Source: a virus. From it: DNA of 38,453 bases. The position numbers were made by a program, and so were the translations under genes. A model generated the notes under the pieces. It had not been told where the DNA came from. It worked only from the letters and a program-made list of their open reading frames with translations, and did no database searches. Shown piece by piece: positions 1,630 to 23,753 of this stretch. Within the stretch, counting starts at the first letter, position 1. The number at the start of each line of letters is the position of its first letter. Where the stretch lies: positions 7,364 to 45,816 of IMG/VR virus record IMGVR_UViG_3300030328_002514; one strand, written 5' to 3'.

Positions 1630-1651
1630 AAACCCCCATTAGGGGGTTTTT
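1630..1651 (+). terminator. Hairpin terminator in cassette
   Basis: AAACCCCC (1630-1637) pairs with GGGGGTTT (1642-1649) around an ATTA loop, followed by T to 1651. The repeated motif begins inside the stop codon of the previous gene (TAAACTGTCCAC, 1617-1628). Confidence 0.9.
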
Positions 1652-1750: not shown

Positions 1751-2710
1751 ATGACAAAAAACCTTCACATTGAGCACCCTGAGGACAGCATCTTGACAGG
1801 TGATTTATCTGTTTTAGATGCTTTTTTAATGGAGCAGCATGTCAGCGTCAAGTATGATGGAGCACCAGCCATAGTATGGGGTAAGAACCCAGCTACTGGC
1901 AATCAGTTCGTGGGCACAAAATCCGTATTTAATAAGATCAAAATCAAAATCAATGAGAGTCATGAGGACATAGACAGAAACCACAACGGCCAGGTGGCCG
2001 AGATACTGCATGAGTGTTTTGATTGTCTCCCTGACACTGATTCTATTATTCAGGGTGATTTCATCGGCTTTGGGGGTGAGGGCCAATATACCCCTAATAC
2101 AATTGAGTATGATTTTGACATGCACGATGATGGCACCGTTGTTATGGAGAATATTATTGTGGCCCCTCATACTGAATATACAGCCGACTGTGACCTAAGG
2201 GATGCAGAGGCCAAACCCCTATTGGAAAATTTGGAAGGAACTGAAATGTGCCTATTCGTGAAACCCCATGCAGGTACGGCTATTGATTCTTACAACCGTT
2301 TTGGCAATAAGTTTGATTTTGGCATGTACCTTGGTTTCGTGAGGGCCATGGCTCAGTTGGTGGTGTTCGCATCCGCCAAAGAGGCTAAGAAGATCATGAA
2401 AGAATTAAATAGCTATATCCGTGACGGTAAGGAGATAGACCCCGACCAGTTTGACAATCCTAAGCTCATTTCATTTTGGTTGAGCGTTAAGACTTTAAAG
2501 ATGATAGCATTAAGTCAGTGCCGCCACAGGTGGGGCCCTGACGCATACATTGTAAACCCTGAGGAGGATTCTATTGAGAGCATCGATGCAGAGGGCTATG
2601 TCATTCATTCTGACGGGGGTAGCTATAAGTTGGTTGATAGAGAATTATTCTCTTATGCCAACTTCAACAACGTCAAGTGGGCCGCAGACAGTCCAGCAGG
2701 TGGCACATAA
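1751..2710 (+). CDS. Ligase-like nucleotidyltransferase domain protein (319 aa)
   Basis: The 319-residue product has the hallmarks of the covalent nucleotidyltransferase superfamily (DNA/RNA ligases and capping enzymes). K34-Y-D-G37 (in VSVKYDGAPAIVWG) fits motif I, with Lys34 the candidate for AMP attachment. QGDFIGFG (101-108) sits where motif III is expected. E281-G-Y-V-I fits motif IV and YKLVDRE (292-298) motif V. The N-terminal IEHPEDSILTGD and the KSVFNKIKIKINESHEDIDR segment are typical of a cyanophage family that I believe is called DUF6267. No OB-fold or separate ligase domain is apparent, so it may be a minimal enzyme, a kinase-ligase relative or an inactive derivative. It follows a structured leader with no Shine-Dalgarno. 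Activity and substrate are inference. Confidence 0.7.
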   Translation: MTKNLHIEHPEDSILTGDLSVLDAFLMEQHVSVKYDGAPAIVWGKNPATGNQFVGTKSVFNKIKIKINESHEDIDRNHNGQVAEILHECFDCLPDTDSIIQGDFIGFGGEGQYTPNTIEYDFDMHDDGTVVMENIIVAPHTEYTADCDLRDAEAKPLLENLEGTEMCLFVKPHAGTAIDSYNRFGNKFDFGMYLGFVRAMAQLVVFASAKEAKKIMKELNSYIRDGKEIDPDQFDNPKLISFWLSVKTLKMIALSQCRHRWGPDAYIVNPEEDSIESIDAEGYVIHSDGGSYKLVDRELFSYANFNNVKWAADSPAGGT

Positions 2711-3253: not shown

Positions 3254-3997
3254 ATGTTCAAAACCGACGGATCAGTTCACAACTCAGGCATCAAAAATGA
3301 GCTTGACACAATCGCATTCTTGAATGAGGCAGGAATTTTCAAGGATGAGGTAAAGCACTTGGGAGGGACTAAGAATAAGGCCGACGCAATGGCAGGGAAT
3401 GTCCCCATTAGCATCAAGCATAAGAAGGGGCTAAAAAACGGTTCGTTCGATTGGGTCAACACTTCAAAAGTTGATTCATTAGTTGACACTGGCCGCTTTA
3501 GTGATTTTCTCTTATTGGTTGACCTTTACAGAAACACCCCTGAGGCAGCCGCTCAGGTTGAGCCTATGCGTTCTGCATTTGCCAACCACTGTGAGAAGGA
3601 GCTGGATGGTATCACTTCAGAGAATCTAACTGCATGGCTTCATCAGGTGCTAGTGCGTGACAATGCGGGGATGGTCATGGCGATCAATGACACAGAGTCT
3701 AAGGAGCTACACATGGTAGAGGATGCTGGCATTATGTCTGTTAGACTTTTAAAGAATGGCTATAGGGCCGAGTTGGTAAAGGGTAGAGGTAAGAGCAGCC
3801 GTAAGGTTGTGTTCAAATCCTTCGGCTCTGAAATTGATACAGGCCTAAGGTTGAGACTGACAAGCAACAACGGCATCAAGGCATTCTTAGGAATGAGCAA
3901 AGCAAATAAGAACAGCCAGATAGTTTTGAAGTTGCAACAGGACAACATCAAGGGATTGATTGAGACAGCCCACGGTGTTGACTCAATGCCTTATTAG
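3254..3997 (+). CDS. Possible PD-(D/E)XK-type nuclease (247 aa)
   Basis: I choose the ATG at 3254 (MFKTDGSVHNSGIKNELD) because the in-frame ATG at 3200 lies inside the terminator hairpin and upstream of the promoter. The N-terminal third has the order seen in PD-(D/E)XK nucleases: a helix with a conserved-looking Glu (IKNELDTIAFLNEAG), then an Asp on a strand (KNKADAMAG), then a second strand with lysines (PISIKHKKG). In that reading the usual Glu of ExK is Ser (SIK), which occurs in variants but weakens the call. The remainder (about 85-247) is mixed helical and basic (KGRGKSSRKVVFKSF) and could bind nucleic acid. It may act with the ligase-like protein two genes upstream; this is inference. 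Confidence 0.45.
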   Translation: MFKTDGSVHNSGIKNELDTIAFLNEAGIFKDEVKHLGGTKNKADAMAGNVPISIKHKKGLKNGSFDWVNTSKVDSLVDTGRFSDFLLLVDLYRNTPEAAAQVEPMRSAFANHCEKELDGITSENLTAWLHQVLVRDNAGMVMAINDTESKELHMVEDAGIMSVRLLKNGYRAELVKGRGKSSRKVVFKSFGSEIDTGLRLRLTSNNGIKAFLGMSKANKNSQIVLKLQQDNIKGLIETAHGVDSMPY

Positions 3998-4389: not shown

Positions 4390-5148
4390 ATGGCTAAAGG
4401 ATTCACGGTGAAGGCAAAACCACCGACTGCACAAAAGCAAGTGCAGGAATGGGATTACGATAAGGCAAAGCAAATAGTAAAAGGAAAATCAATAGTATTT
4501 TGCTTGCCTGGCAGAGGAGTTTCATACCAATATCTAAAATCTTTTGTACAACTCTGCTTCGATTTGGTTCAGGCTGGTGCAAGTATTCAGATATCTCAAG
4601 ATTATTCATCAATGGTGAATTTTGCCCGTTGCAAATGTTTAGGTGCAAATGTTCTCCGTGGGCCTAACCAGATTCCATGGGATGGAAAACTAAAATATGA
4701 CTGGCAATTATGGATTGACTCTGATATTGTTTTTAACTCTGAGAAATTCTTCCAACTCGTGCTAATGGAAAAAGATATAGCAGCAGGTTGGTATGCTACA
4801 GAGGATGGAAAAACAACATCAGTTGCTCATTGGCTAGAAGAAGATGATTTCCGTAACAACGGTGGAGTCATGAATCATGAAACAGTTGAAAGCATCTCAA
4901 AGAGAAAGAAACCTTTCACAGTAGATTACACAGGTTTCGGATGGCTTCTTATTAAGAATGGAGTATTTGAAAACGAAGGACTGCCTTATCCATGGTTCGC
5001 ACCCAAGATGCAAGTCTTCGAGAGTGGCGAAGTACAAGACATGTGTGGTGAAGATGTTTCTTTCTGTCTCGATGCGAAAGAAGCAGGTTTCGAAATCTGG
5101 TGCGATCCACGTGTGCGTGTGGGACATGAAAAGACCAGAGTCATATAG
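4390..5148 (+). CDS. Glycosyltransferase, GT-A type (252 aa)
   Basis: A 252-residue protein with the features of a metal-dependent GT-A glycosyltransferase: an N-terminal Rossmann-like strand (KSIVFCLPGRGVSYQYLKSF, 33-52), a D110-S-D112 motif in LWIDSDIVF for Mn/Mg and nucleotide-sugar binding, GFGWLLIKNGVF (182-193), and a GEDVSFC motif (220-226) with a late His (VGHEK, 245-248), the usual acidic and histidine positions near the acceptor site. Related proteins are common in T4-like cyanophages; likely jobs are sugar addition to virion proteins, DNA bases or host surface polymers. It has a consensus sigma-70 promoter and an AAGGA ribosome site at 4374-4378. Its last 23 bases overlap the next gene in another frame. 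Confidence 0.8.
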   Translation: MAKGFTVKAKPPTAQKQVQEWDYDKAKQIVKGKSIVFCLPGRGVSYQYLKSFVQLCFDLVQAGASIQISQDYSSMVNFARCKCLGANVLRGPNQIPWDGKLKYDWQLWIDSDIVFNSEKFFQLVLMEKDIAAGWYATEDGKTTSVAHWLEEDDFRNNGGVMNHETVESISKRKKPFTVDYTGFGWLLIKNGVFENEGLPYPWFAPKMQVFESGEVQDMCGEDVSFCLDAKEAGFEIWCDPRVRVGHEKTRVI

Positions 5149-7844: not shown

Positions 7845-10800
7845 ATGATCCAAACTGGCATTGAACCGAAAGTAAAGGTTCAGCAAATTATTGAAAATCA
7901 GCTGCCTGAATATGTATTGAGTGAAAGTCCCAATGCAGTAGAATTTTTAAAGCAATATTATATTTCTCAAGAATATCAGGGTGGTGTTATTGACATCTCT
8001 GATAATTTAGATCAATATTTAAAATTAGATAATTTAACTCCAGATGTTGTTGTAGGACAAACAACTCTTTCTACTGGAATTACTACAAGCAGTGATGTAA
8101 TTCCTGTTTCTAGTACAAAGGGTTTTCCCAATGAATGGGGATTATTAAAGATTAATAATGAGATTATAACTTATACTGGAGTAACAACTAATAGTTTTAT
8201 TGGTGCTAAACGTGGTTTTAGTGGTATTACAAGTTATCATCAAGAATTAAATCAAGAAGAATTAACATTTTCTACTTCTAGTACTGCAGATCACTTATCA
8301 GGTACTTATGTACAAAACTTAAGTTCTTTATTTTTACAAGAATTTTATAAAAAACTCAAGTTTTCTCTTACTCCAGGGTTGGAGAATGTTGATTTTGATG
8401 CAAATTTAAATGCAGGTACCTTTATAAAGGAAGCAAGATCCTTATATAATGCTAAAGGAACAGATGAATCATTCAGAATTTTATTTAATGCACTTTATGA
8501 CGAAACTCCAAAAGTTGTAAATTTAGAAGAATATCTATTAAAGCCATCTTCAGCTAACTATGTTAGAAGAGAAATTGTAATTGCAGAAGCACTTGGTGGT
8601 GATGTTACTAAATTAGCAGGACAAACACTTTATAAAACATCAGATGTTAACACTAATGCTTCAATATCTGAAGTTGAAGGGTTTAGTAGAGTTGGTGTTG
8701 CATTAACAACGATTCAAAATTACTATAAATTAGCACTTTTTATTGGTTATGATGACTCTGATTCAACAATTCAAGGTAATTTTGATATTACTCAAGCAAC
8801 TAGATCTCTTGATAATATCGGTGCTGGTGCATCAGTAATTACTGTTGACTCAACTATAGGGTTTGGCCAAACTGGAACCATCATATCAGCTGGTAACACA
8901 TCTATTGATTATACAAATAAGAGTGTTAATCAGTTCTTTGGATGTACTGGAATAGGTGTTTCCATCAAAAAAGCAGATGAAATAAGAAGTAATAACACAT
9001 ATTATGGTTATGAAGATGGGGATATTACCAAGAAGGTAGAATTAAGACTTACTGGTGTATTATCAGACTTTGAACAGGTCTCTACAAACCTGAATATTAA
9101 CGAAGGTGAGATAATTTCGGTCAAAAATGTTGGTGACTTCATAGAAAATCCAGCTATAAACGCATCATTTAAGGAAGTTTTTGCAAATTCTTGGATTTAT
9201 AACACAAGTTGTAGATATTTTATTGAAGGACAGTCTTTTGCGACTGCAAGTCAATTCACTTCTAAGGCAAAAATTGATAAATCCAGTCTAAAAAAAGGTG
9301 ATCTTGTTGAAATTGTTCGAAGTGGATCAAATAATGTTGTACCATTCAATAATGGAAACCTAGAAAGTACTATTTTATCAATTGCTGGTGATTATACCAT
9401 CACCTTATCTGATGCTTTATCTGTAGAAGGTGCAATTGACATTAGAAGGAAACCAAATTATGCAGTTAGTACTGCAGTTCCGTTACAATTTAGTAACATA
9501 TTGTCCGACACATCAAATTTATACATTAAAGATGATACTGAGGAGGCATATTATGCAGCAAATTCACTCCCATCTGGAAGAGCTGGTGTTACTACCGACT
9601 TCTTAAATATTATAACCACTGATGTTAAGTCAGCAACTTCCAGTGGATTGGATGATTTAATAACAAATACATTAGATCAATATAGTACTGTTATATTTCC
9701 ATCTGCAGTTCCATTCTTTACAGGGGATGAAATATATTATAAGCCAAATGGTGCTCATTATGTTGGATTAGAGACTGGTAGATATTATTGTGAGATTGTT
9801 TCTACTGATAAAAAGAAAGTTAGACTATATGGATCTAGAGCATCTATTGAGAGTGCTACTTATATTCCATTACAACCTGCTGGCGGAACACATAAATTTA
9901 TATTAAATTCCCAGAGATCAGAGGAAATATCACCACAAAAATCACTTAAGAAGTTTTCATTAACATCATCTTCAAATAGAGCAAATCAAACGGAGACAGA
10001 TCCAGGAACAACTGGTCTGATGATTAATGGTGTAGAGATTACTAACTACAAGTCTGAAGATAATGTTTATTATGGCCCATTAAAATCTGCAAATGTTGTT
10101 ACTAATGGTAGTGGCTATGATGTTGTTAATCCACCAAATATAGCAGTTAGTGCTGGTGTTGGTACAAATGCTTTAATACAACCAGTAGTACAGGGTTCTG
10201 TTACTAAAGTTTATATTGATCCTCAAGGATTTGATATTAATGAAGTTCAAAGTGTTAATGTTGTTGGTGGTAATGGTAATGCAGTTTTAGAACCATTAAT
10301 TGCTAAGAAGTCAAGAGAAGTTGAATTTGATGGTAGACAAACAGCTTATTCTGGTGGTGTTAATGAAACTGATGATACTATTACATTTTTAACTGATCAT
10401 ACATTCCAGAATGCTCAAGAAGTAATCTATAAGTCTAATGGAAATGAAGGTATTGGTCTTGATGTAGTTACAGAAACTTTAGTTAATAATGCTTCTTATT
10501 TTGTTGAAGTAATTGATAATAAAACAGTTAAATTATATGATAGTGCTATAAATGCAATTAATAAAACTAATGTAGTTGGTTTAGGTATTTCTAATACTAG
10601 TGGAACCCATAAGTTTTCCACTTTACCTAATCAAAAATCAGTTATTGGTATAGAAGTTATAGATGGTGGAACATTAACCAATAGAAAACTGCATGTTAAA
10701 CCTACTGGTATATCTACACAATACAATAAAGTAGTATATAAAGATCATGGATTTGGTAATGGTGATATAGTTGAATATACAACTGCTGTAGGTGTGGGTA

Positions 10801-13800
10801 CAACGGTTCCACAAGCAATTACTGGATTAACAATAAGTACAGGAATAACCACAACTGCAAATTATTATCAGGTTCTTAAGGTTGATAATGATTCATTTAG
10901 ATTAACTAATGCTGGCCTTGGTGGAACAGATCCAACTAATTTCAATAGAGATAACTTTGTTAAGTTTGAATCTGAAGGTAAAGGATTCCAAGTCTTCAAA
11001 TATCCAGATATTTCAGTATCATTAAAGTATTCTCCTGTAGGATTTGGTACTATTACCCAATCCGTTGAAGAGATGATACTTACTCCTACTGTTACGGGTA
11101 CTATCATTGATGCTTATTTGTATGAACCTGGTACTGGTTATGGTTCAACTATAATTAATTTTGAAAAGAAACCTACAATAACTATCCAAAATGGTAGAAA
11201 TGCATCATTAAAAGCAAATATCATTGGTGGTAAACTTGATAGTGTTGATATTAACTATGGTGGTGTAGAATATTATTCAGTACCTGATTTAGAAATAGTT
11301 GATTCTACAGGAGCAGGATCTGGTGCTAAATTAAGGCCAATTATAACCAATAATAAAATATCCTCTGTACAAGTTGTTAGTACTGGTATTGGATATTCTG
11401 CAGCATCAACTACTGTAAAAATAACTTCTGCAGGTAAAGGTGGTAATATTGATTGTTTTGTTAGACCATTAACGATAGATATGGTTGAGAAGTATGGTGA
11501 CAGTGAATTATTTGTAGAAAGTGATGATAAGTTAAAATATACAGTTGTTGGGTATGGAGAAACTTATAGAACATCATTTGGTGAAGTTGGTACAGGTATA
11601 ACCATTGCATCTAAGATTATTGGGTGGGCTTATGATGGAAATCCGATTTATGGGCCTTTTGCTTATTCTAATCCTCAAGATTCTAACTCAACTCCAAAGA
11701 GACTATTAAGTGGTTATTCATTAGATGCTTCTAGTGTATTTGATAGACCTTCTACTACAGTATTCCCAGAAGGATTTTTTGTAGATGATAATAAATTTGA
11801 TGATTCTGGTGATTTGGATGCAAATAATGGTCGTTTTGCAAAAACACCTGAGTTCCCAGATGGAATTTATGCTTATTATGCAACAATAAAGGATAGTGGT
11901 GCTCAAAATAAACCACAGTTCCCATATTTTATAGGAAACAGTTATAGATCAATTCCACAAGAACAACCTTTAACTCAGGATTATGATTATGCAACAAATA
12001 ATCTTATTAGGAATACCTTCCCATATAGAGTTGCTGAGAAGGATATTGATAATGACTTCATTATTGAAACAAATGAAATATCTAATCAGAAGGCAATAAT
12101 AGAATCAGTTACATCAGGTACCATTGATGAATTAAACGTTGTTGATGCTGGTGATAATTATCAAATAAATGAGGGATTGATATTTAATGAGTCAGGAACA
12201 AATGGTGAAGGATTGTCTAGTAAGGTTTCTTCTTTGGTTGGAAGACCTATCGTTGATATACAAACTGCAGTTACAACTTTTGATAATACAATACTGACTT
12301 GGAACCCTGATAATGTTCAAGTTAATATTTTACCTCAACATTCTTTAGTTAATCGTGATAATGTTGTTATTTCTGGCCTATCTACAGTTTTAACTGAACT
12401 AAATGGAAGATATCAAATTGGTATAGTAACAGCAAGTACTCAAGTAATTGCAGAAGTACCTACAGTAGGATCTCTACCAAATGCAACTGAAATATATGTT
12501 TCAACAATACCTGAGTCATTAGGTATAGGTAACAGCATTACAATTGGTGCTGAAACCATGCAGGTTTTAGAAATATATCCAAATGAAAGAATAATAAGGG
12601 CTAATAGAGGTTCTACAGGTCTTGTGCACGGTGTAGGTAGTACAATTTCTATAATACCTGATTCATTTACTATTCCTAAAACTGTACCTTATTTTGAATC
12701 AGCAATAAACAATATTGCATATTTCAATCCAATCAAGGCTGTTGGTTTTGGTGTTACACCTGGTGTCACCCATACATCAACATTTGGATTTGGAAGTACT
12801 ACAATTACAAGAAGTATTCCAACTCAAACAATTTATATACCAAATCATAAGTTTAAAAATAATGAATCAGTAACTGTTTCAGTTCCTGGTGGAGCAGCAC
12901 AAATATCTATTGCTAATAGTTCTGGTACTGTTAGTTATAATTTACCACAAGAAGTATATGTTACTAATAGAGGTAAAAATTATGTTGGAATAAAAACTGG
13001 TGTTGGTATAGGTTTCTCAGATGTCTACTTTACTGGTGGTGGTACTAACTATAATAATTATTTAATTACTACTAAATTTGAGCAGGTATTAGCAAAGACA
13101 CAAAAAATTAATTCAACAGTTTCTATTTCTACATCATTTACTCATGGGTTAGTTGTAGGTGATCAGATTGATTTGAATGTTAAATCTAATCTTTCAGTTG
13201 GTATAGGAACATCCACAGGTGTAAGACTTAAGAGAAATGCAGATACTGGAAATATTTTAGTTAATCCCATTAGTTTTAATAATACTGGTATTAATTCAAT
13301 AACTAATGAAATAACTTTAAGTGAGCATGGATTAGAAACAGGAGATAGAGTTTTCTATGAGGCCAATGATGTTGCTAGTGGATTATCAACTGGTGGTTAC
13401 TTTGTATTTAAAGTTGATGATGATGTTATTAAATTAACCGAATCATCTAAAGATGCTTATACCAATCCACCTATTGTAGTTGGAATGGCTGATACTGGAG
13501 GATCTATACAATCTCTTTCTTTAATAAATCCATCCTTATTTACTGTTGGAAATAGTGATTTAGTATTTGATATAGTTGATCCGTCTTTAGAGGGATATGA
13601 TCTTAAGTTCTATTATGATAATAAGTTTAAAAATGAATTTGTTTCTACTGGATATACAGGTGCGGCTGCGTTTACTATAACAGGTGTTGGAACAGCTGGT
13701 ATTGGTACCCTTGCAACTAGGACTTTAAATTATGATAGTATGCTTCCATCTGAGTTATATTATAACTTAGAGAAGGGTGGATTTATTAGTACCGCAGATA

Positions 13801-16800
13801 CTCAAGTTGAAAAATATTCATTAATTAATTTTGCAGATAGTTTATATAACGATAGGTACAATGTTATTGCTACAGGATCTACAACATTTGATATTTCTTT
13901 AAGGCAAATTCCAGAAAGATTGGATTATTCAAATGAAACTAGTTCTTTAGAATATACTACAACATCTCTAACAGCATTTGGTGGTGTTGACCAAGCAGAC
14001 GTTAACTTTAGTGGATTTGGATATAAGAGATTGCCTAATTTTGTTGGTATTGGTACTACCACCACAGGATCAGGTGCATATATTATTCCTGCTTCAAAAT
14101 CAATTGGTAATGCAAATCAGGTAAGAATTATTAATGAAGGGTTTGAATATTCTTCAGATAAAACTTTAAAACCAAATGCATTTATTTCACCTTTAATTGT
14201 TGTTGAAAATTCAAATACAATAGGTGTGGTTACTGTTACTGATGGTGGTGATGGTTATCTATCTGCTCCAAATATAGCAATTGTACACCCAACTACAAGG
14301 AAAAAGATTGATTCTGGTTTATTGAAAGCAACATTAACAGGCCCTGCAGTAGGAGATGTTGAAGTAGTTGTAGCTCCATCTGGATTACCAGAATTACCTG
14401 TAGAATTATTTACAACTAATAACACTAATGGTATTGGTATTAAAACGGTTACTAGTAATAATACTGGAATATTTACTTGTTATATTACCACTCCATCAAC
14501 AGGATACTCTCCACTTCCATTTACAGTAGGTGATGAGGTCTTTATAGAAAATATGGTTAAAGTTGGTACTGCTGGTACTGGATTTAACTCTGTAGATTTG
14601 GGTTATAGATTCCCTAAAGTTATAGCATATACACCAGGTACGACAGATTCAGTAACCCTTGATGCAACTGAATTCACAACAAATTGTGGTGTTGCTGTTA
14701 CTGATCAGGGATCTTTAGCAGTAATCATTAATAAGAATAATTATCCAACATTTACAACTTATCAATACCCATCTCAATTTATTGTTGGGGAACAAATAAT
14801 TTCAAACGATGTTGTAAGAGATTTATACATTACTTCAACTGAAGATGATGCAAGAAATCCTGACTTTATTAAAGTTTTTGGAACTTATCAATTAAGTCCT
14901 GATGAAGTTATTGTTGGAAAGGACTCTGGAACAATAGCGGCTATTGTTAGTCTTACTGAGAACCTTGGAAGATATTCTGTAAGTTATGCAGCTAAAAAAG
15001 ATATTGGTTGGACTAATGATACTGGAAAATTAAATTTAGATAATCAAGTACTTCCTGACAATGATTATTTCCAAAATCTTTCATATACAGTTAAGAGTAG
15101 TCAAGAATATAGTACATTAAGAAGTCCAGTAAATGGATTACTTCATACTGCAGGCCTTAAGAACTTTGCAGATACAGGAATTACATCCACAACAGTAGTA
15201 TCTGGAATTGGTAGTACAGATCAATCACTTTCTATTATTGATCTAACAGGTGATGAAAGAGTAGATACACTTTATAATTGGACTACTGCATATGATTTGG
15301 AATATAATAGCACTGTTGGTAATCTAGCTTTAACTGGTAAAGCATCTAAATTTGTTGAAGTTGAAAATAAGAGATTATCATCTTACTTACTTGGAAGGAG
15401 TAATCAAGTTCTGATAGTAGATGATATTAATAGGCAATTCTCAAACTTAGACGGTGAACCAAGTGAATTTTTAAATTTATTCGAAATAGAAGCTTCTCAA
15501 CTTAATACTTTTGAATCTCTGTTTGTTAGAGTTACTAATCTAGATCAAACTGATATTCAAACAGCAGATTTGGTACTATTAAATAATTTTGGGACAGAAT
15601 CTGTATTATTAGAGAAGCAGAAATTAAATGATGAAACATCTATTGGAACTTTTGATGTTCAAGAAACTTCTCTTGGAGATAGTTACCTTAGATTTATTCC
15701 TTTACCAGATGCATATAACACTGACTATGATCTTAAGGTTATTAGAACACAATTCAACGAACTTGCTGGTGTAGGTACATATGCAGTAGGATTTGTTAAT
15801 ATAACTGGTTCTGTTGGTATTGCTACTACTCTTTCAGCAGGAATAACAACTACAAGAATTGTTGGTTTAAATTCTGAGAAATATAGTTCATTACATTTAC
15901 AAAATCATTTATTAAATGAAACAACAAATGAACAAAATTACTTAGAATTATATGTTACACATGATGGTGAAAATACATATACTTCTGAATATTTTGTTGA
16001 TACCCATTCTGATCTTGGAATGTATTCAAATACTTTGATGGGTGAATTTGAGGTAGGATTCTCAACAGATTCTGGTTATGGTAATGAGTTAATAGTTGAG
16101 TATAAAAATGATTCAACAGACAAAATACAACTTAAGTCTAAAATAGTTGGATTTGGTACAACAGCTGTTGGAGTTGGAACTTATAGATTCTTAGCACCTG
16201 GTCAACCTCAAGGATCTGAACAAACTGCTCTTTATCAGTCTGATTATGCTACTGGTACTGGAACAAGAAATGTATTCTCAGTCCTTAACACTGACTTTAA
16301 TGCAGTTAAGTCTGTTATTGAAGTTAGTGCTGGATCAACTAAAGCATTACATCAAGTATATTTAATGCACGATACTGGTGATGTTTATACACAACCATCA
16401 CCATTCATATCTGTTGGTAGTACATCTGTTTCAGATTCTATGTCGGGAATAGGATCCTTCAACGGTAAATTTAATGGTAATCAACTACAACTTGAGTTTA
16501 TTCCAGATTCTGCATATGCAAGTACTGAAATTCAAGTATCTTCATTAAATCTCTGTATGTATGGCCCATTAGATACACTTAATGAAGAACTTACTTCAGA
16601 TCTTGAATTTGGTAGTGGAAGAGAAAATCTTAAATTATTCTTCTATAATGCAATTAATGGTGATAGGATTAATAGAAAGAATTTTACCTTAACCTCTGGA
16701 AGTACTCCAATTTTTGCTAAGACATTTAATCCTGCTGCAACAAATATAGTTAATCTTACATCAGGTACATTTAGTATTGATAATCATTGGTTTAGAACTG

Positions 16801-19800
16801 CAGAAGAATTAATATACAAACCAAATTCAACATTTGTTGGTGTTGGATCTACTCCAATGCAATATGTAGATAGTGGCGGTGGAATTAATTCATTAACAAG
16901 TCCTGTATTTGCTATTAGAGATGGTAGTGATTCATTCCAGATAGCAACTACTAAGACATTAGCACTTGCTGGTACTGGTGTTACATTTGTTGGTGTTGGT
17001 ACAGGAAATGCACATGAATTCCAAATGGCTCTTGCTAATACAAAAGCAGTCATTACTATTGATAATTTAATACAATCTCCATTAGCATATAATCCAATTG
17101 CATTCAGTCTTCAGAATAATACAGAAGATATTGATGGTGCTGGAACATTAGGTATAGGTACTACTGCAACCACGTTCTCACTTAGTGGTATTTCATCTCT
17201 TGGCCCTGATGATATTGTGAGGGTTGGTGAAGAGTATATGAAGATTCTTAATCTTGGAATAGGTACTGAAACAGATGGCCCAATTACTGGAATTGGAACA
17301 ACATCTCTTATTGAAGTTGAAAGATCCTTCGTTGGTTCAGCACCATCAGCTCATGCAAATAACTCAACTGTTCAACTTTATAGAGGTTCATATCAAATTG
17401 TTGGTAAGGAAGTATACTTCACAGATTCTCCTAGAGGTAATCCTCAGGTAGAGAAAGATGCAGGTAATTTACCTTTCCCAACATCATCATTTACTGGACG
17501 TGCATTCTTAAGGAATGATTATAATACTAACCAAATATATGATGATATAACAGATGAATTTACTGGACTTGATACCAAATTCAGATTAAGAGTTGGTGGT
17601 GCAAATACTGTTGGTCTAGGAAGTACTGGTGGTAGTGGATTAGTTCTTATTAGTAATATCTTCCAGAAACCATCTGCTGCAAATAATCCAGATAATAATT
17701 TCGAAATTCAAGAAGACACTAGTGTTGGAATTAGTAGTGTTGTCTTTACAGGTATAGCATCTGCTACAGGAGATGTTTATATTAGTGATGCTGATGTAAA
17801 CCAAAACCAACTACCAAGAGGTGGTGTGTTAATTTCTCTTGGATCTACACCAGGATTGGGATATGCTGTTCCAGTACCAGCAAAAGCATATATTGAAACT
17901 GATGCTGCTGGTAGTATTACTAGTATTGTTGGATTCCCAACTGTTGCATCAACTAAGAATCCAATTACAGCTGCAGATTATGATAATGTTACTGGTGAAT
18001 TAGAACTTACTACACTTAATCCCACTTATTTTGAATCTGGTGTTATTAAACAAGTTAAATTGGTTGGCCTTTCGTTTACATGTAACGATAGTTATAGTGT
18101 ATCTAATGCAGTTTATCAACAAACTACTGGTAATTTAGTATTAACAATTGGTGCTAATGCTTTAGGTGTAGGCCAGAGTGTTGGTATTGCAACCAATTCA
18201 TTAACATTTACATGTTCACAGGATGGGTATTCCTCTTATCATTCATATCCACGTCATGGTACAGATCCTATTGCTGGAATAGCTACACCAATTATTGAAA
18301 GAACTGCTGAAACCATAACCATTAATGTTGGTACTGGAACAGATTCTATACATCAATTTGTAGGTGTAGGAACTGATGCAGTAATAATCAATAGTGGATT
18401 CTCTGGTATAACAACTACAATCTATCCTAAGTATCCTGTAGGATTAACAAGTACTAGTGAAGATTATACAATTTTAGATGTAGATGAAAGAGATTATACT
18501 CATCAATTTGTAGGTACTGCAACTAGTGCTCTTTATTCTGGTGGTGATTTTGCACATACATTCGTTTCTGCTGACACTAATGCAGTAAACGGTAGTCTAA
18601 CTCCAAATGGTGGAGATTATAATGCTAATACTGGAGTTCTAACTCTTACATTCTCTGGTGCACATGGTGTTGCTGGTGGTGGAAATGTAACTATTGCTAA
18701 TGCTTCATTAATTTTCAAATGCTCTAGAGATAATTTCCAGACAGAACATAGATATCCTAGACCAAGTGATCCTGCATATGGACAAACATTAACCGCAACG
18801 GTACCAAATTTAACAACTATTGAAGTCCCTGTAGGCACGTCTCCTGCCTCTGAGAAGAACGTAACTGCTGCAACCTATATTCCCGCAACTGGACAAGTAG
18901 AATTGACTGTAGGGTCAGGCCATGGGTATAGTGCTGCATCCCCAATAACAGCAACTAATGCGACTTATACACAGTCAACTGGACGATTAGTAGTTACTAG
19001 TAATGGTCATGGTCTTGTTACTGGTGATAGAGTCTTATTAACAGATGGTTGTTTAACATTTACTTGTGCAAAAGACAGTAATGCTACAGAACATTCATAC
19101 CCAAGAGTAAATGATCCTGCTCATGCTAAATGGTTAGCAGTTCATGTATACACTATAAACACATTTACTGTATATGTTGGTGCAGCCGCAGATACCGCAG
19201 ATCAATATGCACATACCTTTATAAGTGGTGCAACTAATGGTATTCTCAAGAAAGTTGGTAAGACTGTTGGAATTAAGACAGAATCATTAGGATTCAAGTG
19301 CTCAATGGATAATTATGCAACTATTCATGATTATCCACGTTATGGAGATCCTGCAGGGGATGGTTCAGTTATTGGTATAACATCAGTAACTACAAGCACA
19401 ATTACATTGGATGTTGGTAAGTTACCAAGATATAGATTTACTACTAATGTAGGTGTTAACTCTATACCTCACCGATACCTTGGTAGAGGATATGCACTTC
19501 CATGGTATGGAGATGCAACATATGGTTCTGCTTATAGTGGATCTGTTTCTATAGGAATTACCGATTCACCATATGATCATAAATTTGTAAGTGCTACAAG
19601 TAATGCTATAGAAATTGGTGGTGATTATGGACATTCATTTGTAAGTGGTTCTAGTGATCTTGCAAACGCAGTATACAGTGGTGGAAATTATAAGCATACC
19701 TTCGTTAGTGGTGTTACTGATTCTGTTACTAAGGTTACTGGTGGAGGTAAATTAACTCCTGTTGGAGCAGCATACACAGGCTCTACTGGTGTATTGCAAA

Positions 19801-22800
19801 TAACCTTTGCATCTGCTCATGGAATTAGTGGTGGGCAGTCAATTAATATAGACAATGGTGCATTAACATTTACTTGTGATAGAGATAATAATGCTACAGA
19901 ACATGCATATCCTCGTGCATCAGATCCTATTGCTGGAGTTAGTACTGTAGTTACTGTTCCTACTACAACTACAGTTCAATTAAATGTAGGTTCATCACCT
20001 AATGTAACTACTACTATTACTAGTCCATATGCAGAGTACAGTCCTGGAACAGGTATTGTTACCTTCTTTGTAGCATCCCATAATTTCAATTCACCAACTA
20101 CTCATACAATTGCTGATGCTGGATACAATCCTACAACTGGATACTTAGATTTAACAGTTACAGGCCATGGTTGGCAGACTGGAGAATATGTTAAGATTGC
20201 AGAAAATTCATTAAGATTTACATGTGCTCTTGATAATCATGCAACAGATCATTACTATCCAAGATTTAGTTCTGCAGATAAAGATGAAACTGGAAGTCAG
20301 TGGTTACCAATTCAGCAAGTAGGTGTTAATACATTTGCTGTTTATGTTGGAGTTGCAGGAGATATAAATGCAGGTATTCATACATTTGTATCAGCATCTC
20401 AACCACTTACTAAGTCGGTTGATGAGATTGGAATTAAGACCGATTCATTAGCATTTACATGTGGTAGAGATGATAATCAATCTGTTCACACATATCCAAG
20501 ATTAGGAAAAGATCCTCTTAATATTTCATACAGTAAAGTTGTTGGTATTGCTACAACTGGTGCTACTTCATTCAGTATTTTTGTTGGAGTAACAACAAAT
20601 TCAACACTTGATGTACTTGATTCCACTTATGAAGGTGGAAGTGGCGTATTGAAAGTAGTAGTTGGTGAAGAAGCCATGACTGCTGTTGCTGCTAACAACA
20701 ATAGAATAGGAATTGTAACAGAATCTCTTACATTTACTTGTGATAAAGATAATCACAGAACAGATCATGCGTATCCTCGTTTATCGGATCCAGTTGTAGG
20801 TATCTGTACAGATGTTATTTCATCTGATGCAACTTCATTTGATGTGTTCGTTGGATCTAGTGTTGGTACTAATGGTGTAATAAATGCATCAATTGTAGAA
20901 TATAATAAGCATAACTTTATAACTGCTGGTGTAGGATCAATTACTGCAAATGCAGGTGGCCCATTTACAGCAACTACTGGTACTGAATATGATCCTTCAA
21001 GTGGAATATTAACAGTAACAACTACAGGAAGTCATGGATTCACTCAATCAGGAATCAATACAGCAAAATCAGGTACTACTTACAATCCAACTACAGGTAT
21101 TTTAGAAATTGAGACTGTAGGTGGTGCTCATGGATGGTCAAATGGAGACTTAATTAAGATTGAAGAGAATTCTCTAACCTTTACATGTACATTGGATGGT
21201 AATGCTACACAGCATACTTATCCAAGACCTGGTGATCCTATCCATAATAAGTGGATTCCAATTAGTAATGCATCTTTTGCTACTTTCCAAGTTAATTGTC
21301 TTAAGAGAGTACCATCTACAAATACTTCAACACATACATTTGTATCTGCAGCTGCTAGTGGAATCCAGAAAGCAAATAATACTGTTGGATTCACTACTGG
21401 TGGTTTAACATTCACATGTGCTAAGAACAATCATCTTGATCTTCATACTTATCCTAGACCTAAGAAAGATCCTGTACATAATGCAACCATAGGTGTTGAA
21501 CAAGTATTTGCTGCAAATAAATTTACGGTTAATGTAGGTAAATCACCATCAGGAACTGGAGCAAGATTAGATCTTAGTGTTGGTGCTGCTGGTACAAATT
21601 ATATTAATCCTAGTTTAATTATTCCAGAACCTTCATATAGTAATCTTGAAGTTACTGGTATATCAAGATTAGGTGAAGGCCCAACTACAAATACTGGATC
21701 AGGTTTATTAGTTAATGTTGGTATGGGTCAACGTCCTCGTGGAGATGAGCATAGATTTGTAAGTGCTGGTATTAATTCAGTAACTAGAAGTATTGGTGGA
21801 ACCTTGACTGTTTCTGATGCTGGATATATTCCATCAACAGGTATTCTTGAATTATCATTTACTGGTGCTCATGGTTTATCAGGTGCTAATACAATTCAGA
21901 TTGCTAATGATTCTTTAACCTTTACATGTGGTAGAGATAACTTCAACAGTGAGCATGATTATCCACGTACATCAGATCCTGTATCTGGTCAGAGTATTGC
22001 TATCACTGAAATTGTAGATACTGATACTATTAAGGTCTTTGTTGGAATAACAACCTTTAGTGATCTACCTTATGGTGAAATGACTGAATATGGACTTACT
22101 AGAAGTGGCTATGGGTTTAGAAGAGGTGATCAGTTTACACCTGTTGGTTTAGTTACAGACTCTAATTTAAGAGAAATAGTGACTCCTGCAATATTCACTG
22201 CAGTTGATATTCATAATGATTCGTTTGCAGCATGGCAATTCGGACAATTTGATTACATTGATTCTATTAAAAATCAGCAAGATGGATCTAAGACAAGATT
22301 TGAATTAAAATATGATGGTTCATTATTAGCATTTGAATCTGAAGATACTCCAGCATTCCCTGAAATGAATCTTTCAAATGCATTATTAATTATCATTAAT
22401 GGTGCTATTCAAGAACCAGGAGTTGCATATGACTTTGATGGAGGAACATCATTCGTCTTTAGGGAAGCACCTAGAGCAACTGATGATGTAAGTATATTCT
22501 TCTATCGTGGAACTGATGGTGAAGATACTCTTCTAATTACTGATATTAAAGAAACACTAAAACCTGGTGATATTATTGAACTATTGAGAATGGAGTCTGA
22601 TAAAGTAAGTCAGACCGATAGAACAATCGAAGCGATTGTTGATTCTGATAGAATAGAAACTAGTTTCTATACTGGGGCAGGAATTACTAGTGAAAGAAAG
22701 CAGTTTAGTTGGACTAAACAAAAAGTTGATAAAATTATCGGTGGTCAGGTTGTTTCTAAAGCAAGAAGTATAACAGAACCATTAGTCTTCCCAACAGCGA

Positions 22801-23753
22801 AGATTATAAGAGATCTATCTTCTACAGAAACTGGCCAAATATTTGTTGATAATGCATCCATATTTAATTATGAAGGAGATCTTCCTACTAAACCTATTGG
22901 TGGATTTATTGTAGATAATGCAATTCCAGAACCTCGTGCTGCATCTTTAACTGCTACAATCAATGCTTCTGGTCAATTATCAGGGCTCACTATTGTAGAT
23001 GGTGGTCTTGGATATGTCGGTGCTTCAACTAATCTATCAGTTGGAATACCAACAAGTGGTATTGGTGTTGGTATAGGAACTACTGCTACTGCTACTGCTA
23101 CTATAACAAATGGAGTTATCTCAGGTACTTCAATTACAAATGCAGGATTTGGATACACTTCTACCAATGTACCTAAAGTTATAGCACCATTACCATTATA
23201 TAAATCTGAATTAGTAAGTAATATTACTGCTGTTCAAGATATTACTGGATCTATTACAGGAATTGGTACAACTACTAAAGCAGGATCATCCAGTGGTTTA
23301 GCATTGATGTTTGAAGTATACTCTGCTGGTGGCCTTGCTGTCTTAGCAGATGGTCGTCCGATCAGTGTTTTTGATACACAGATAGGAACAGGTGTAACTT
23401 CAATATATGATTCTGATAGTGAAATAATTGGTATAGGAACAGAATTCCTAGACAATATTTACAATATTAGTGGTAATCATGGAGGATATAGTGGTACTAC
23501 CTCAATTTTAGTATGTAACATTAAATCTGATACTGTACATACTGGGCTCAGTACTACAGGTGCATGGACAAATAATCCAGCAGGACACTTCTCAATGGGT
23601 AGATTGAGTGGAACAATTACCAGAAATACAGGTAATCCAATAGCAATTGGTGTTAGTGGTTTAACCGTTAATTCTGGTCTAACTACCTTCCCAACAATAC
23701 AGAGAAGGTTAGAAGGTTTTAGAGATAGTGGGGCTGTCGATCCAACATCTTAA
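7845..23753 (+). CDS. gp7: Giant gp7-like baseplate protein with YHYH domain and repeats (5302 aa)
   Basis: One unbroken frame of 15.9 kb. Residues about 9-46 and 152-239 form a helical segment matching the C-terminal part of T4 gp7 (here RSLYNAKGTDESFRILFNAL; T4 has a YSTKGIEASYKFLFKVLY-like stretch). The position between gp6 and gp8 agrees. T4 gp7 has 1032 residues, so this is about five times longer. Beta-rich modules follow: GxGY modules, GTHKF modules, and a YHYH domain around 1225-1370 (IGWAYDGNPIYGP; DANNGRFAKTPEFPDGIYAY). Residues 3400-4740 hold eleven C-x2-[DN]-x5-H-x-Y-P-R motifs. A fibre-type domain near 4784-4892 (LLIIINGAIQEPGVAYDF) precedes more GxGY modules. It probably forms wedge core plus extended surface arms; the arms are inference. 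The start has only a weak GGA upstream. Confidence 0.85.
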   Translation: MIQTGIEPKVKVQQIIENQLPEYVLSESPNAVEFLKQYYISQEYQGGVIDISDNLDQYLKLDNLTPDVVVGQTTLSTGITTSSDVIPVSSTKGFPNEWGLLKINNEIITYTGVTTNSFIGAKRGFSGITSYHQELNQEELTFSTSSTADHLSGTYVQNLSSLFLQEFYKKLKFSLTPGLENVDFDANLNAGTFIKEARSLYNAKGTDESFRILFNALYDETPKVVNLEEYLLKPSSANYVRREIVIAEALGGDVTKLAGQTLYKTSDVNTNASISEVEGFSRVGVALTTIQNYYKLALFIGYDDSDSTIQGNFDITQATRSLDNIGAGASVITVDSTIGFGQTGTIISAGNTSIDYTNKSVNQFFGCTGIGVSIKKADEIRSNNTYYGYEDGDITKKVELRLTGVLSDFEQVSTNLNINEGEIISVKNVGDFIENPAINASFKEVFANSWIYNTSCRYFIEGQSFATASQFTSKAKIDKSSLKKGDLVEIVRSGSNNVVPFNNGNLESTILSIAGDYTITLSDALSVEGAIDIRRKPNYAVSTAVPLQFSNILSDTSNLYIKDDTEEAYYAANSLPSGRAGVTTDFLNIITTDVKSATSSGLDDLITNTLDQYSTVIFPSAVPFFTGDEIYYKPNGAHYVGLETGRYYCEIVSTDKKKVRLYGSRASIESATYIPLQPAGGTHKFILNSQRSEEISPQKSLKKFSLTSSSNRANQTETDPGTTGLMINGVEITNYKSEDNVYYGPLKSANVVTNGSGYDVVNPPNIAVSAGVGTNALIQPVVQGSVTKVYIDPQGFDINEVQSVNVVGGNGNAVLEPLIAKKSREVEFDGRQTAYSGGVNETDDTITFLTDHTFQNAQEVIYKSNGNEGIGLDVVTETLVNNASYFVEVIDNKTVKLYDSAINAINKTNVVGLGISNTSGTHKFSTLPNQKSVIGIEVIDGGTLTNRKLHVKPTGISTQYNKVVYKDHGFGNGDIVEYTTAVGVGTTVPQAITGLTISTGITTTANYYQVLKVDNDSFRLTNAGLGGTDPTNFNRDNFVKFESEGKGFQVFKYPDISVSLKYSPVGFGTITQSVEEMILTPTVTGTIIDAYLYEPGTGYGSTIINFEKKPTITIQNGRNASLKANIIGGKLDSVDINYGGVEYYSVPDLEIVDSTGAGSGAKLRPIITNNKISSVQVVSTGIGYSAASTTVKITSAGKGGNIDCFVRPLTIDMVEKYGDSELFVESDDKLKYTVVGYGETYRTSFGEVGTGITIASKIIGWAYDGNPIYGPFAYSNPQDSNSTPKRLLSGYSLDASSVFDRPSTTVFPEGFFVDDNKFDDSGDLDANNGRFAKTPEFPDGIYAYYATIKDSGAQNKPQFPYFIGNSYRSIPQEQPLTQDYDYATNNLIRNTFPYRVAEKDIDNDFIIETNEISNQKAIIESVTSGTIDELNVVDAGDNYQINEGLIFNESGTNGEGLSSKVSSLVGRPIVDIQTAVTTFDNTILTWNPDNVQVNILPQHSLVNRDNVVISGLSTVLTELNGRYQIGIVTASTQVIAEVPTVGSLPNATEIYVSTIPESLGIGNSITIGAETMQVLEIYPNERIIRANRGSTGLVHGVGSTISIIPDSFTIPKTVPYFESAINNIAYFNPIKAVGFGVTPGVTHTSTFGFGSTTITRSIPTQTIYIPNHKFKNNESVTVSVPGGAAQISIANSSGTVSYNLPQEVYVTNRGKNYVGIKTGVGIGFSDVYFTGGGTNYNNYLITTKFEQVLAKTQKINSTVSISTSFTHGLVVGDQIDLNVKSNLSVGIGTSTGVRLKRNADTGNILVNPISFNNTGINSITNEITLSEHGLETGDRVFYEANDVASGLSTGGYFVFKVDDDVIKLTESSKDAYTNPPIVVGMADTGGSIQSLSLINPSLFTVGNSDLVFDIVDPSLEGYDLKFYYDNKFKNEFVSTGYTGAAAFTITGVGTAGIGTLATRTLNYDSMLPSELYYNLEKGGFISTADTQVEKYSLINFADSLYNDRYNVIATGSTTFDISLRQIPERLDYSNETSSLEYTTTSLTAFGGVDQADVNFSGFGYKRLPNFVGIGTTTTGSGAYIIPASKSIGNANQVRIINEGFEYSSDKTLKPNAFISPLIVVENSNTIGVVTVTDGGDGYLSAPNIAIVHPTTRKKIDSGLLKATLTGPAVGDVEVVVAPSGLPELPVELFTTNNTNGIGIKTVTSNNTGIFTCYITTPSTGYSPLPFTVGDEVFIENMVKVGTAGTGFNSVDLGYRFPKVIAYTPGTTDSVTLDATEFTTNCGVAVTDQGSLAVIINKNNYPTFTTYQYPSQFIVGEQIISNDVVRDLYITSTEDDARNPDFIKVFGTYQLSPDEVIVGKDSGTIAAIVSLTENLGRYSVSYAAKKDIGWTNDTGKLNLDNQVLPDNDYFQNLSYTVKSSQEYSTLRSPVNGLLHTAGLKNFADTGITSTTVVSGIGSTDQSLSIIDLTGDERVDTLYNWTTAYDLEYNSTVGNLALTGKASKFVEVENKRLSSYLLGRSNQVLIVDDINRQFSNLDGEPSEFLNLFEIEASQLNTFESLFVRVTNLDQTDIQTADLVLLNNFGTESVLLEKQKLNDETSIGTFDVQETSLGDSYLRFIPLPDAYNTDYDLKVIRTQFNELAGVGTYAVGFVNITGSVGIATTLSAGITTTRIVGLNSEKYSSLHLQNHLLNETTNEQNYLELYVTHDGENTYTSEYFVDTHSDLGMYSNTLMGEFEVGFSTDSGYGNELIVEYKNDSTDKIQLKSKIVGFGTTAVGVGTYRFLAPGQPQGSEQTALYQSDYATGTGTRNVFSVLNTDFNAVKSVIEVSAGSTKALHQVYLMHDTGDVYTQPSPFISVGSTSVSDSMSGIGSFNGKFNGNQLQLEFIPDSAYASTEIQVSSLNLCMYGPLDTLNEELTSDLEFGSGRENLKLFFYNAINGDRINRKNFTLTSGSTPIFAKTFNPAATNIVNLTSGTFSIDNHWFRTAEELIYKPNSTFVGVGSTPMQYVDSGGGINSLTSPVFAIRDGSDSFQIATTKTLALAGTGVTFVGVGTGNAHEFQMALANTKAVITIDNLIQSPLAYNPIAFSLQNNTEDIDGAGTLGIGTTATTFSLSGISSLGPDDIVRVGEEYMKILNLGIGTETDGPITGIGTTSLIEVERSFVGSAPSAHANNSTVQLYRGSYQIVGKEVYFTDSPRGNPQVEKDAGNLPFPTSSFTGRAFLRNDYNTNQIYDDITDEFTGLDTKFRLRVGGANTVGLGSTGGSGLVLISNIFQKPSAANNPDNNFEIQEDTSVGISSVVFTGIASATGDVYISDADVNQNQLPRGGVLISLGSTPGLGYAVPVPAKAYIETDAAGSITSIVGFPTVASTKNPITAADYDNVTGELELTTLNPTYFESGVIKQVKLVGLSFTCNDSYSVSNAVYQQTTGNLVLTIGANALGVGQSVGIATNSLTFTCSQDGYSSYHSYPRHGTDPIAGIATPIIERTAETITINVGTGTDSIHQFVGVGTDAVIINSGFSGITTTIYPKYPVGLTSTSEDYTILDVDERDYTHQFVGTATSALYSGGDFAHTFVSADTNAVNGSLTPNGGDYNANTGVLTLTFSGAHGVAGGGNVTIANASLIFKCSRDNFQTEHRYPRPSDPAYGQTLTATVPNLTTIEVPVGTSPASEKNVTAATYIPATGQVELTVGSGHGYSAASPITATNATYTQSTGRLVVTSNGHGLVTGDRVLLTDGCLTFTCAKDSNATEHSYPRVNDPAHAKWLAVHVYTINTFTVYVGAAADTADQYAHTFISGATNGILKKVGKTVGIKTESLGFKCSMDNYATIHDYPRYGDPAGDGSVIGITSVTTSTITLDVGKLPRYRFTTNVGVNSIPHRYLGRGYALPWYGDATYGSAYSGSVSIGITDSPYDHKFVSATSNAIEIGGDYGHSFVSGSSDLANAVYSGGNYKHTFVSGVTDSVTKVTGGGKLTPVGAAYTGSTGVLQITFASAHGISGGQSINIDNGALTFTCDRDNNATEHAYPRASDPIAGVSTVVTVPTTTTVQLNVGSSPNVTTTITSPYAEYSPGTGIVTFFVASHNFNSPTTHTIADAGYNPTTGYLDLTVTGHGWQTGEYVKIAENSLRFTCALDNHATDHYYPRFSSADKDETGSQWLPIQQVGVNTFAVYVGVAGDINAGIHTFVSASQPLTKSVDEIGIKTDSLAFTCGRDDNQSVHTYPRLGKDPLNISYSKVVGIATTGATSFSIFVGVTTNSTLDVLDSTYEGGSGVLKVVVGEEAMTAVAANNNRIGIVTESLTFTCDKDNHRTDHAYPRLSDPVVGICTDVISSDATSFDVFVGSSVGTNGVINASIVEYNKHNFITAGVGSITANAGGPFTATTGTEYDPSSGILTVTTTGSHGFTQSGINTAKSGTTYNPTTGILEIETVGGAHGWSNGDLIKIEENSLTFTCTLDGNATQHTYPRPGDPIHNKWIPISNASFATFQVNCLKRVPSTNTSTHTFVSAAASGIQKANNTVGFTTGGLTFTCAKNNHLDLHTYPRPKKDPVHNATIGVEQVFAANKFTVNVGKSPSGTGARLDLSVGAAGTNYINPSLIIPEPSYSNLEVTGISRLGEGPTTNTGSGLLVNVGMGQRPRGDEHRFVSAGINSVTRSIGGTLTVSDAGYIPSTGILELSFTGAHGLSGANTIQIANDSLTFTCGRDNFNSEHDYPRTSDPVSGQSIAITEIVDTDTIKVFVGITTFSDLPYGEMTEYGLTRSGYGFRRGDQFTPVGLVTDSNLREIVTPAIFTAVDIHNDSFAAWQFGQFDYIDSIKNQQDGSKTRFELKYDGSLLAFESEDTPAFPEMNLSNALLIIINGAIQEPGVAYDFDGGTSFVFREAPRATDDVSIFFYRGTDGEDTLLITDIKETLKPGDIIELLRMESDKVSQTDRTIEAIVDSDRIETSFYTGAGITSERKQFSWTKQKVDKIIGGQVVSKARSITEPLVFPTAKIIRDLSSTETGQIFVDNASIFNYEGDLPTKPIGGFIVDNAIPEPRAASLTATINASGQLSGLTIVDGGLGYVGASTNLSVGIPTSGIGVGIGTTATATATITNGVISGTSITNAGFGYTSTNVPKVIAPLPLYKSELVSNITAVQDITGSITGIGTTTKAGSSSGLALMFEVYSAGGLAVLADGRPISVFDTQIGTGVTSIYDSDSEIIGIGTEFLDNIYNISGNHGGYSGTTSILVCNIKSDTVHTGLSTTGAWTNNPAGHFSMGRLSGTITRNTGNPIAIGVSGLTVNSGLTTFPTIQRRLEGFRDSGAVDPTS
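18060..22060 (+). repeat. Eleven-copy Cys-His-YPR protein repeat with A-B-C super-repeat
   Basis: Within the giant protein the motif F-[TK]-C-x2-[DN]-x5-H-x-Y-P-R occurs eleven times. Its Cys codons are at 18213, 18720, 19065, 19299, 19875, 20223, 20460, 20739, 21186, 21417 and 21927. The copies fall into three kinds. A has AHG(L/V/I)SGxxxIxI upstream, B has GHGWxTGDxxKI and KW(I/L) downstream, C has VGIKTxSL. The order is C-A-B-C-A-B-C-C'-B-C-A. Spacing in residues is A to B 115 and 116; B to C 78, 79 and 77; C to A 169, 192 and 170. HxFVSA strands lie between copies. Confidence 0.9.
23085..23102 (+). repeat. Short tandem repeat (GCTACT)3
   Basis: Three perfect tandem GCTACT units inside the giant gene, coding alternating Ala and Thr in a GxGY-type module near the C-terminus. 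It keeps frame on gain or loss of units. Confidence 0.8.

Follow-up and report, generated by a model that had tools for sequence, protein, structure and literature searches.

The DUF6267 gene and its surroundings

We analyzed a stretch of 38,453 nucleotides (hereafter, the window) taken from a virus record of 45.8 kb in total, in which a 319-residue open reading frame on the forward strand follows a series of small genes. The features that we located in and around this gene are collected in Table 1.

Table 1. Features of the DUF6267 locus, in window coordinates.
Feature	Position	Strand	Details
Terminator-like hairpin	1630..1649	+	Upstream of the DUF6267 gene, parting it from the preceding small gene
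DUF6267 CDS (ligase-fold covalent nucleotidyltransferase core, predicted)	1751..2710	+	ATG to TAA, 319 aa
N-terminal signature H6-x2-H9-x-E11-D12	1766..1786	+	H6, H9, D12 invariant; ~25 residues ahead of motif I
Motif I, K34-Y-D36-G37	1850..1861	+	K34, D36, G37 in 77/77; K34 ends strand 30-34
Motif Ia-like, G55-T-K57-S58	1913..1924	+	K57 in 77/77
Motif III, G102-D103-F-I-G106-F-G108	2054..2074	+	D103 in 77/77
Probable motif IIIa, N116-T-I-x-Y120-x-F	2096..2116	+	N116, Y120 in 77/77
Helical insertion between motifs III and IV	2321..2515	+	Helices 191-201, 209-224, 237-255; N220, K250 invariant
Motif IV, E281-G282-Y-V-I	2591..2605	+	E281, G282 in 77/77
Motif V, Y-K293-L-V-x-R297	2624..2641	+	K293, R297 in 77/77
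Neighbor gene, predicted PD-(D/E)XK-fold nuclease	3254..3997	+	247 aa from the likely start; D44...S53-I-K55

The product of the gene matches the Pfam profile DUF6267 (PF19782) with an E value of 1.8e-77 (261.6 bits, for a curated cutoff of 27) and the PHROG 455 profile (phrog_455) with an E value of 1.5e-115 (389.5 bits), the latter profile, unlike the window protein, also taking in a fused cytidyltransferase. It belongs fully to both families and is therefore already present in databases, where its function is unassigned; a literature search found no paper naming DUF6267, PHROG 455, or their accessions. Homologues of DUF6267 occur in 471 phage records, almost all of them from T4-like phages of Synechococcus or Prochlorococcus, with a pelagiphage, a methylophilales phage, and a few more as the other carriers, as well as in many hundreds of environmental contigs. 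A scan of genome contigs for cellular homologues had one MAG contig (L142) among the matches listed. When compared with two close homologues, the gene yielded a dN/dS of 0.13-0.15, the differences being mostly synonymous, and it is a real gene under purifying selection.

The sequence-only reading had placed the gene among early genes, a placement for which we have no measured support: The gene precedes the baseplate genes by ~3 kb, an arrangement also seen in S-SKS1. The baseplate gene region includes a single open reading frame of 5302 aa (7845-23753, forward strand), and near the baseplate genes we also observed a 252-aa protein (4390-5148, forward strand) that is 72-100% identical across many viral contigs and bears a weak similarity to glycosyltransferases (phrog_34859). 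On the other side of the DUF6267 gene, terminator-like hairpins of similar make-up, AAACCCCC...GGGGGTTT, come after each of the small upstream genes (430-460, 945-970, 1330-1355, and 1630-1650), and each such hairpin is followed by an AT-rich stretch of the TATTATAAGAG type, as if every small gene formed its own cassette. In total, 16 terminator-like sites were found where 4.6 were expected.

Invariant motifs and the predicted fold

To describe conservation across the family, we used an alignment of 77 DUF6267 homologues, drawn from viral contigs with several queries and from one genome contig. Although identity to the window protein falls to 24-32% among the distant sequences, 25 columns are invariant, namely, H6, H9, D12, K34, D36, G37, P39, P47, K57, L86, Q101, D103, N116, Y120, H140, T141, Y143, N220, K250, E281, G282, K293, R297, F300, and N304. 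This set covers KxDG in motif I, the basic residue of motif Ia, the acidic residue of motif III, EG in motif IV, and the first of the two motif V lysines. The earlier reading of the sequence had assigned motifs I, III, IV, and V to KYDG (34-37), GDFIGFG (102-108), EGYVI (281-285), and YKLVDR (292-297), and we found all four at exactly these residues; motif Ia (GTKS, with K57) and the probable motif IIIa had escaped it. K34 is the predicted AMP-accepting lysine.

Chance hardly accounts for the order of the motifs. When the protein was shuffled 200,000 times, the strict ordered pattern K.DG...G[DE]xxG...EG[hydrophobic]...K arose in 14 trials, whereas KxDG alone arose in 13%, and the key residues are retained in 77/77 homologues; conservation across the alignment is a stronger argument than the shuffle statistic. 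Two of the motifs are altered throughout the family. The acidic residue of motif III is an aspartate (D103), never a glutamate, in all 77 homologues, and the position of the second motif V lysine is occupied by valine or isoleucine in all 77, with R297, four residues past K293, being invariant instead.

The AF2 model built from the same alignment (mean pLDDT 90.9, pTM 0.87) contains a nucleotidyltransferase core. Foldseek against the PDB ranked DNA and RNA ligases at the top, with matches too weak to decide the matter by themselves (best E 0.086), and when the Foldseek candidates were run through VIA-align, all 50 listed rows belonged to RNA or DNA ligases or to enzymes related to them. The best row, Naegleria NgrRnl, reached a Z of 8.9 over 178 residues at 3.6 Å, a value little above the usual best for an unmatched model, followed by fungal Trl1 (7.5), T4 Rnl2 (7.2), T4 Rnl1 (6.9), TbREL1 (6.8), the archaeal RNA ligases (~6.5), and the DNA ligases (about 5.5-6; human LIG1, ~6). 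Since these Z values are modest in absolute terms, the argument rests on the uniformity of the list and on its agreement with the invariant residues. Judging from the aligned end points of the model, we infer that K34 and K293 share their offsets with K35 and K225 of T4 Rnl2, respectively. Structure matches in BFVD were other DUF6267 proteins, several of them fused to a cytidyltransferase-like domain.

Sequence comparison yielded no such link. Neither the window protein (Pfam) nor 29 family members (Pfam and NCBIfam) matched the PF01068, PF09414, or PF09511 profiles; phmmer and hmmsearch of DUF6267 against PDB chains returned no significant ligase match; and hhalign against nine Rnl2-type ligases gave P ~0.15-0.26, which is not significant, with EGYV as the only stretch paired. 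A PDB match to 3prh (E 0.31) and weak NCBIfam VanH matches were taken as noise.

The protein combines the marks of the ligase/capping superfamily: a lysine in motif I, an acidic residue in motif III, E-G in motif IV, a lysine in motif V, and the core fold in the model. DUF6267 is almost certainly a covalent nucleotidyltransferase. The earlier proposal of a minimal ligase-like nucleotidyltransferase holds as to class, given the predicted core fold and the 50 listed PDB rows; a predicted fold lacking this core, the outcome that was to refute it, did not arise. The specific jobs proposed with it (sealing of RNA or DNA nicks, repair of tRNA, or transfer of AMP to a target) are candidate roles.

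Genomic context and candidate activities

In most relatives, DUF6267 lies within a replication/recombination cluster, between the genes of the replication helicase and the primase, with uvsX/gp41/mazG to one side and gp61/nrdA to the other (gp43-uvsX-gp41-mazG...gp61), and this site beside the replication helicase fits better with nucleic-acid sealing than with tRNA repair. The phages that carry it also appear to be short of recognizable ligases. No PF01068 or PF09414 match was found in 14 Kyanoviridae-type genomes carrying DUF6267, and no PF09511 or PF01653 match in the 8 of these 14 that were tested for the latter profiles, while phage T4, run as a positive control, matched PF01068, PF09414, and PF09511. 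One review has pointed out that homologues of the g30 ligase are missing from cyanomyoviruses and considered unrecognized distant homologues as a possibility, its authors preferring the option that the host ligase suffices (PMC2984593). DUF6267 is a candidate for this part and may be the ligase that cyanomyoviruses were thought to lack; host LigA, on the other hand, may do all ligation in these phages. We also considered the annotated "tRNA ligase" of P-SSM2 (P-SSM2_198; locus L312, 8771-9574) as a second ligase and rejected it, because it matches the class II aminoacyl-tRNA synthetase profile PF00152, so that its label is an aminoacylation name and does not denote an RNA ligase.

Our main reading, to which we assign a probability of roughly 0.55, is that DUF6267 is a single-domain, Lys-AMP-forming minimal polynucleotide ligase. 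We infer that it is catalytic, that AMP (as opposed to GMP or another nucleotide) is transferred, and that the substrate is a nucleic acid. A nucleotide cofactor would donate AMP to Lys34 of the enzyme, which would hand it on to the 5′-phosphorylated end of a polynucleotide and then join this end to a 3′-OH. Its favored job would be the sealing of DNA or RNA/DNA nicks in phage replication or repair, a preference based on the location in the replication/recombination cluster of most relatives and on the lack of recognizable ligases in these phages. Counted against the ligase reading are the weak Foldseek E value, the modest Z values, the missing profile link, the lost motif V lysine, and the missing OB or C-terminal domain.

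The strongest competitor comes from a second gene. A (T/H)xGH "cytidyltransferase" gene, with invariant GRxxPPxxGH and SxSxxxR motifs, was present in 15 of the 15 DUF6267 phage genomes tested. It stands directly downstream of DUF6267 in 78 of 80 S-CAM1-type loci, and 57 of the 58 HTVC008M-type loci with room for it have it inside the flank, while the subfamily of the window mostly keeps the two genes separate, the partner being seen in 7 of 98 loci with room. In P-SSM2 they are 99 kb apart, and the window's own record contains no cytidyltransferase, an absence that carries no weight in a fragment. On a contig that binning assigned to a Firmicutes MAG, a 936-aa open reading frame (L142, 1828-4638) carries DUF6267 and then the cytidyltransferase in a natural multi-part fusion, whose C-terminus reads, by motif, as PD-(D/E)XK-like GDVKIGDYQVEVK.

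Such a pairing could mean that DUF6267 is a covalent nucleotidyltransferase that acts on a small molecule or protein, in a two-step pathway with the cytidyltransferase that involves no end joining and whose product might be a cofactor or modified nucleotide or else a protein carrying AMP or CMP. The constant co-occurrence with a nucleotidyltransferase of small-molecule type, often adjacent or fused (the fused form being that of L142 and of the PHROG 455 profile), could point to a substrate other than nucleic acid, and the complete motif set of the partner, its weak match to an NMN adenylyltransferase profile (phrog_3462, 2e-4), and the departure of DUF6267 motif V from the ligase K-x-K go in the same direction. 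But the fold is nearest to RNA ligases, with no small-molecule enzyme nearer, 91 of the 98 window-like loci with room do not have the partner next to DUF6267, and most relatives keep the gene in the replication cluster. We regard this pathway as possible but on the unlikely side.

The two proteins also differ with respect to the virion. In published proteomes of purified particles, the cytidyltransferase is listed for both S-SZBM1 and S-CREM2 (PMC9146016, PMC10665884), whereas the DUF6267 products of these phages (S-SZBM1_141; S-CREM2 58914-59762) are absent from the proteins listed there. A capsid-targeting-like N-terminus was found in 0 of 325 DUF6267 open reading frames, and a role of DUF6267 as a virion protein is, on these two counts, unsupported. 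Several cyanophage cytidyltransferases (L148, 7908-9056, and homologues) start with MKxFSxFLxEA, including an LxE|A cleavage-like site; this start agrees with the detection in virions of the two phages and resembles the T4 capsid-targeting sequence concept (PMC9026906).

Nuclease-like genes make up a further part of the neighborhood. The product of the gene at 3254-3997 (AF2 pLDDT 88.7), in which D44 and S53-x-K55 are invariant, gave restriction endonucleases and Holliday junction resolvases as the top structural rows, with Z up to 7.3 where clearly unrelated folds reached ≤3.1. It had no Pfam or PHROG function and no match in the phage collection; its homologues lie in marine viral contigs. 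It is a possible partner of DUF6267. As a general rule, a nuclease partnership was rejected: Within the subfamily of the window, the 247-aa neighbor is confined to close relatives, and its more distant homologues have no DUF6267 nearby. In other lineages, the genes directly upstream of DUF6267 in a pelagiphage (L143, 4923-5981), a methylophilales phage (L147, 4881-5966), and S-CAM1 (L145, 4754-5977) have no family match, but their conserved D...S[L/V]K signatures suggest nuclease-like folds; by motif reading, the upstream genes of HTVC008M-type and S-CAM1-type loci show D...SLK and D...YLSxK. Taken as sequence signatures, these neighbors hint at a nuclease-ligase association.

A wider version of the ligase reading would join these elements. 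DUF6267 would provide the ligase catalysis in a new module for nucleic-acid end processing or modification common to T4-like marine phages, together with the (T/H)xGH nucleotidyltransferase, which is packaged in the virion in some cyanophages, and with the restriction-fold nuclease-like neighbor in several lineages, and would at the same time be the missing replication/repair ligase of cyanomyoviruses. We consider this joint proposal unlikely to hold in full.

By analogy with T4 Rnl1 and PseT, DUF6267 could instead repair tRNA or other RNA that is cut by host anti-phage nucleases. Its top structural neighbors (NgrRnl, Trl1, T4 Rnl1, and Rnl2) are RNA repair ligases, and in being a single-domain core that lacks an OB fold it looks like the ligase modules of RNA repair. 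Against this, no RNA end-healing kinase or phosphatase was found beside DUF6267 in the annotated neighborhoods examined, the P-SSM2 "tRNA ligase" is no polynucleotide ligase, and the window contains no tRNA gene, which makes RNA repair distinctly improbable. It is more doubtful still that DUF6267 is a pseudo-ligase, i.e., a catalytically altered sensor or regulator that keeps the fold and nucleotide binding; the loss of the second motif V lysine and the Glu-to-Asp change in motif III in all members would suit such a role, but Lys34, D103, E281, and K293 are retained in 77/77 homologues, and pseudo-enzymes rarely retain such residues. That the motif order is a coincidence and DUF6267 is unrelated to ligases, in favor of which one could cite that no ligase family was matched significantly by sequence, is scarcely credible in view of the fold result, the 77/77 invariance, and the 14 in 200,000 shuffles.

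A catalytic class and four residues that can be mutated make a family of ~470 phage records, to which no function is assigned, directly testable.

Comparison with named ligases

The best fold match, NgrRnl (PDB 5cot and the 6vt series), shares ~12% identity with the DUF6267 protein. Its active site, as named in the entries, consists of K170, D172, E227, E312, and K326, which are compatibly spaced from the ends of the alignment; at the C-terminal end, the spacing would agree with that of E312 and K326 to within one residue. NgrRnl has an extra N-terminal region (before approximately residue 143), which the alignment leaves uncovered for most entries, whereas in DUF6267 motif III has an aspartate and motif IV is preceded by a helical insertion.

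T4 Rnl2 (PF09414) shares with DUF6267 the common G-[DE]-x-x-G shape of motif III (G98-E99-x-x-G102 in Rnl2), with a glutamate where DUF6267 has its aspartate. D36 of DUF6267 stands in the place of T4 Rnl2 H37, and motif V reads K-x-V instead of the K-x-K of Rnl2, whose K225 and K227 do not vary across the Rnl2 set. For Rnl2, the second lysine of this motif is essential. The Rnl2-type C-terminal domain is absent from DUF6267, the chain of which ends 22 residues past R297.

With the ATP-dependent DNA ligases (PF01068; T4 gp30 and human LIG1), DUF6267 has the core fold, KxDG, and EG in common; it differs from them in lacking the OB domain and motif VI, with ~20 residues left past motif V. The H6-x2-H9-x-E11-D12 signature, on the other hand, has no counterpart motif in the named ligase families. 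The altered motifs III and V within a single-domain ligase core should be useful to ligase enzymologists. Hence, with neither an OB nor an Rnl2-type C-terminal domain, with changes in both of these motifs, and with no profile link, DUF6267 has the look of a ligase core that stands outside any named ligase family.
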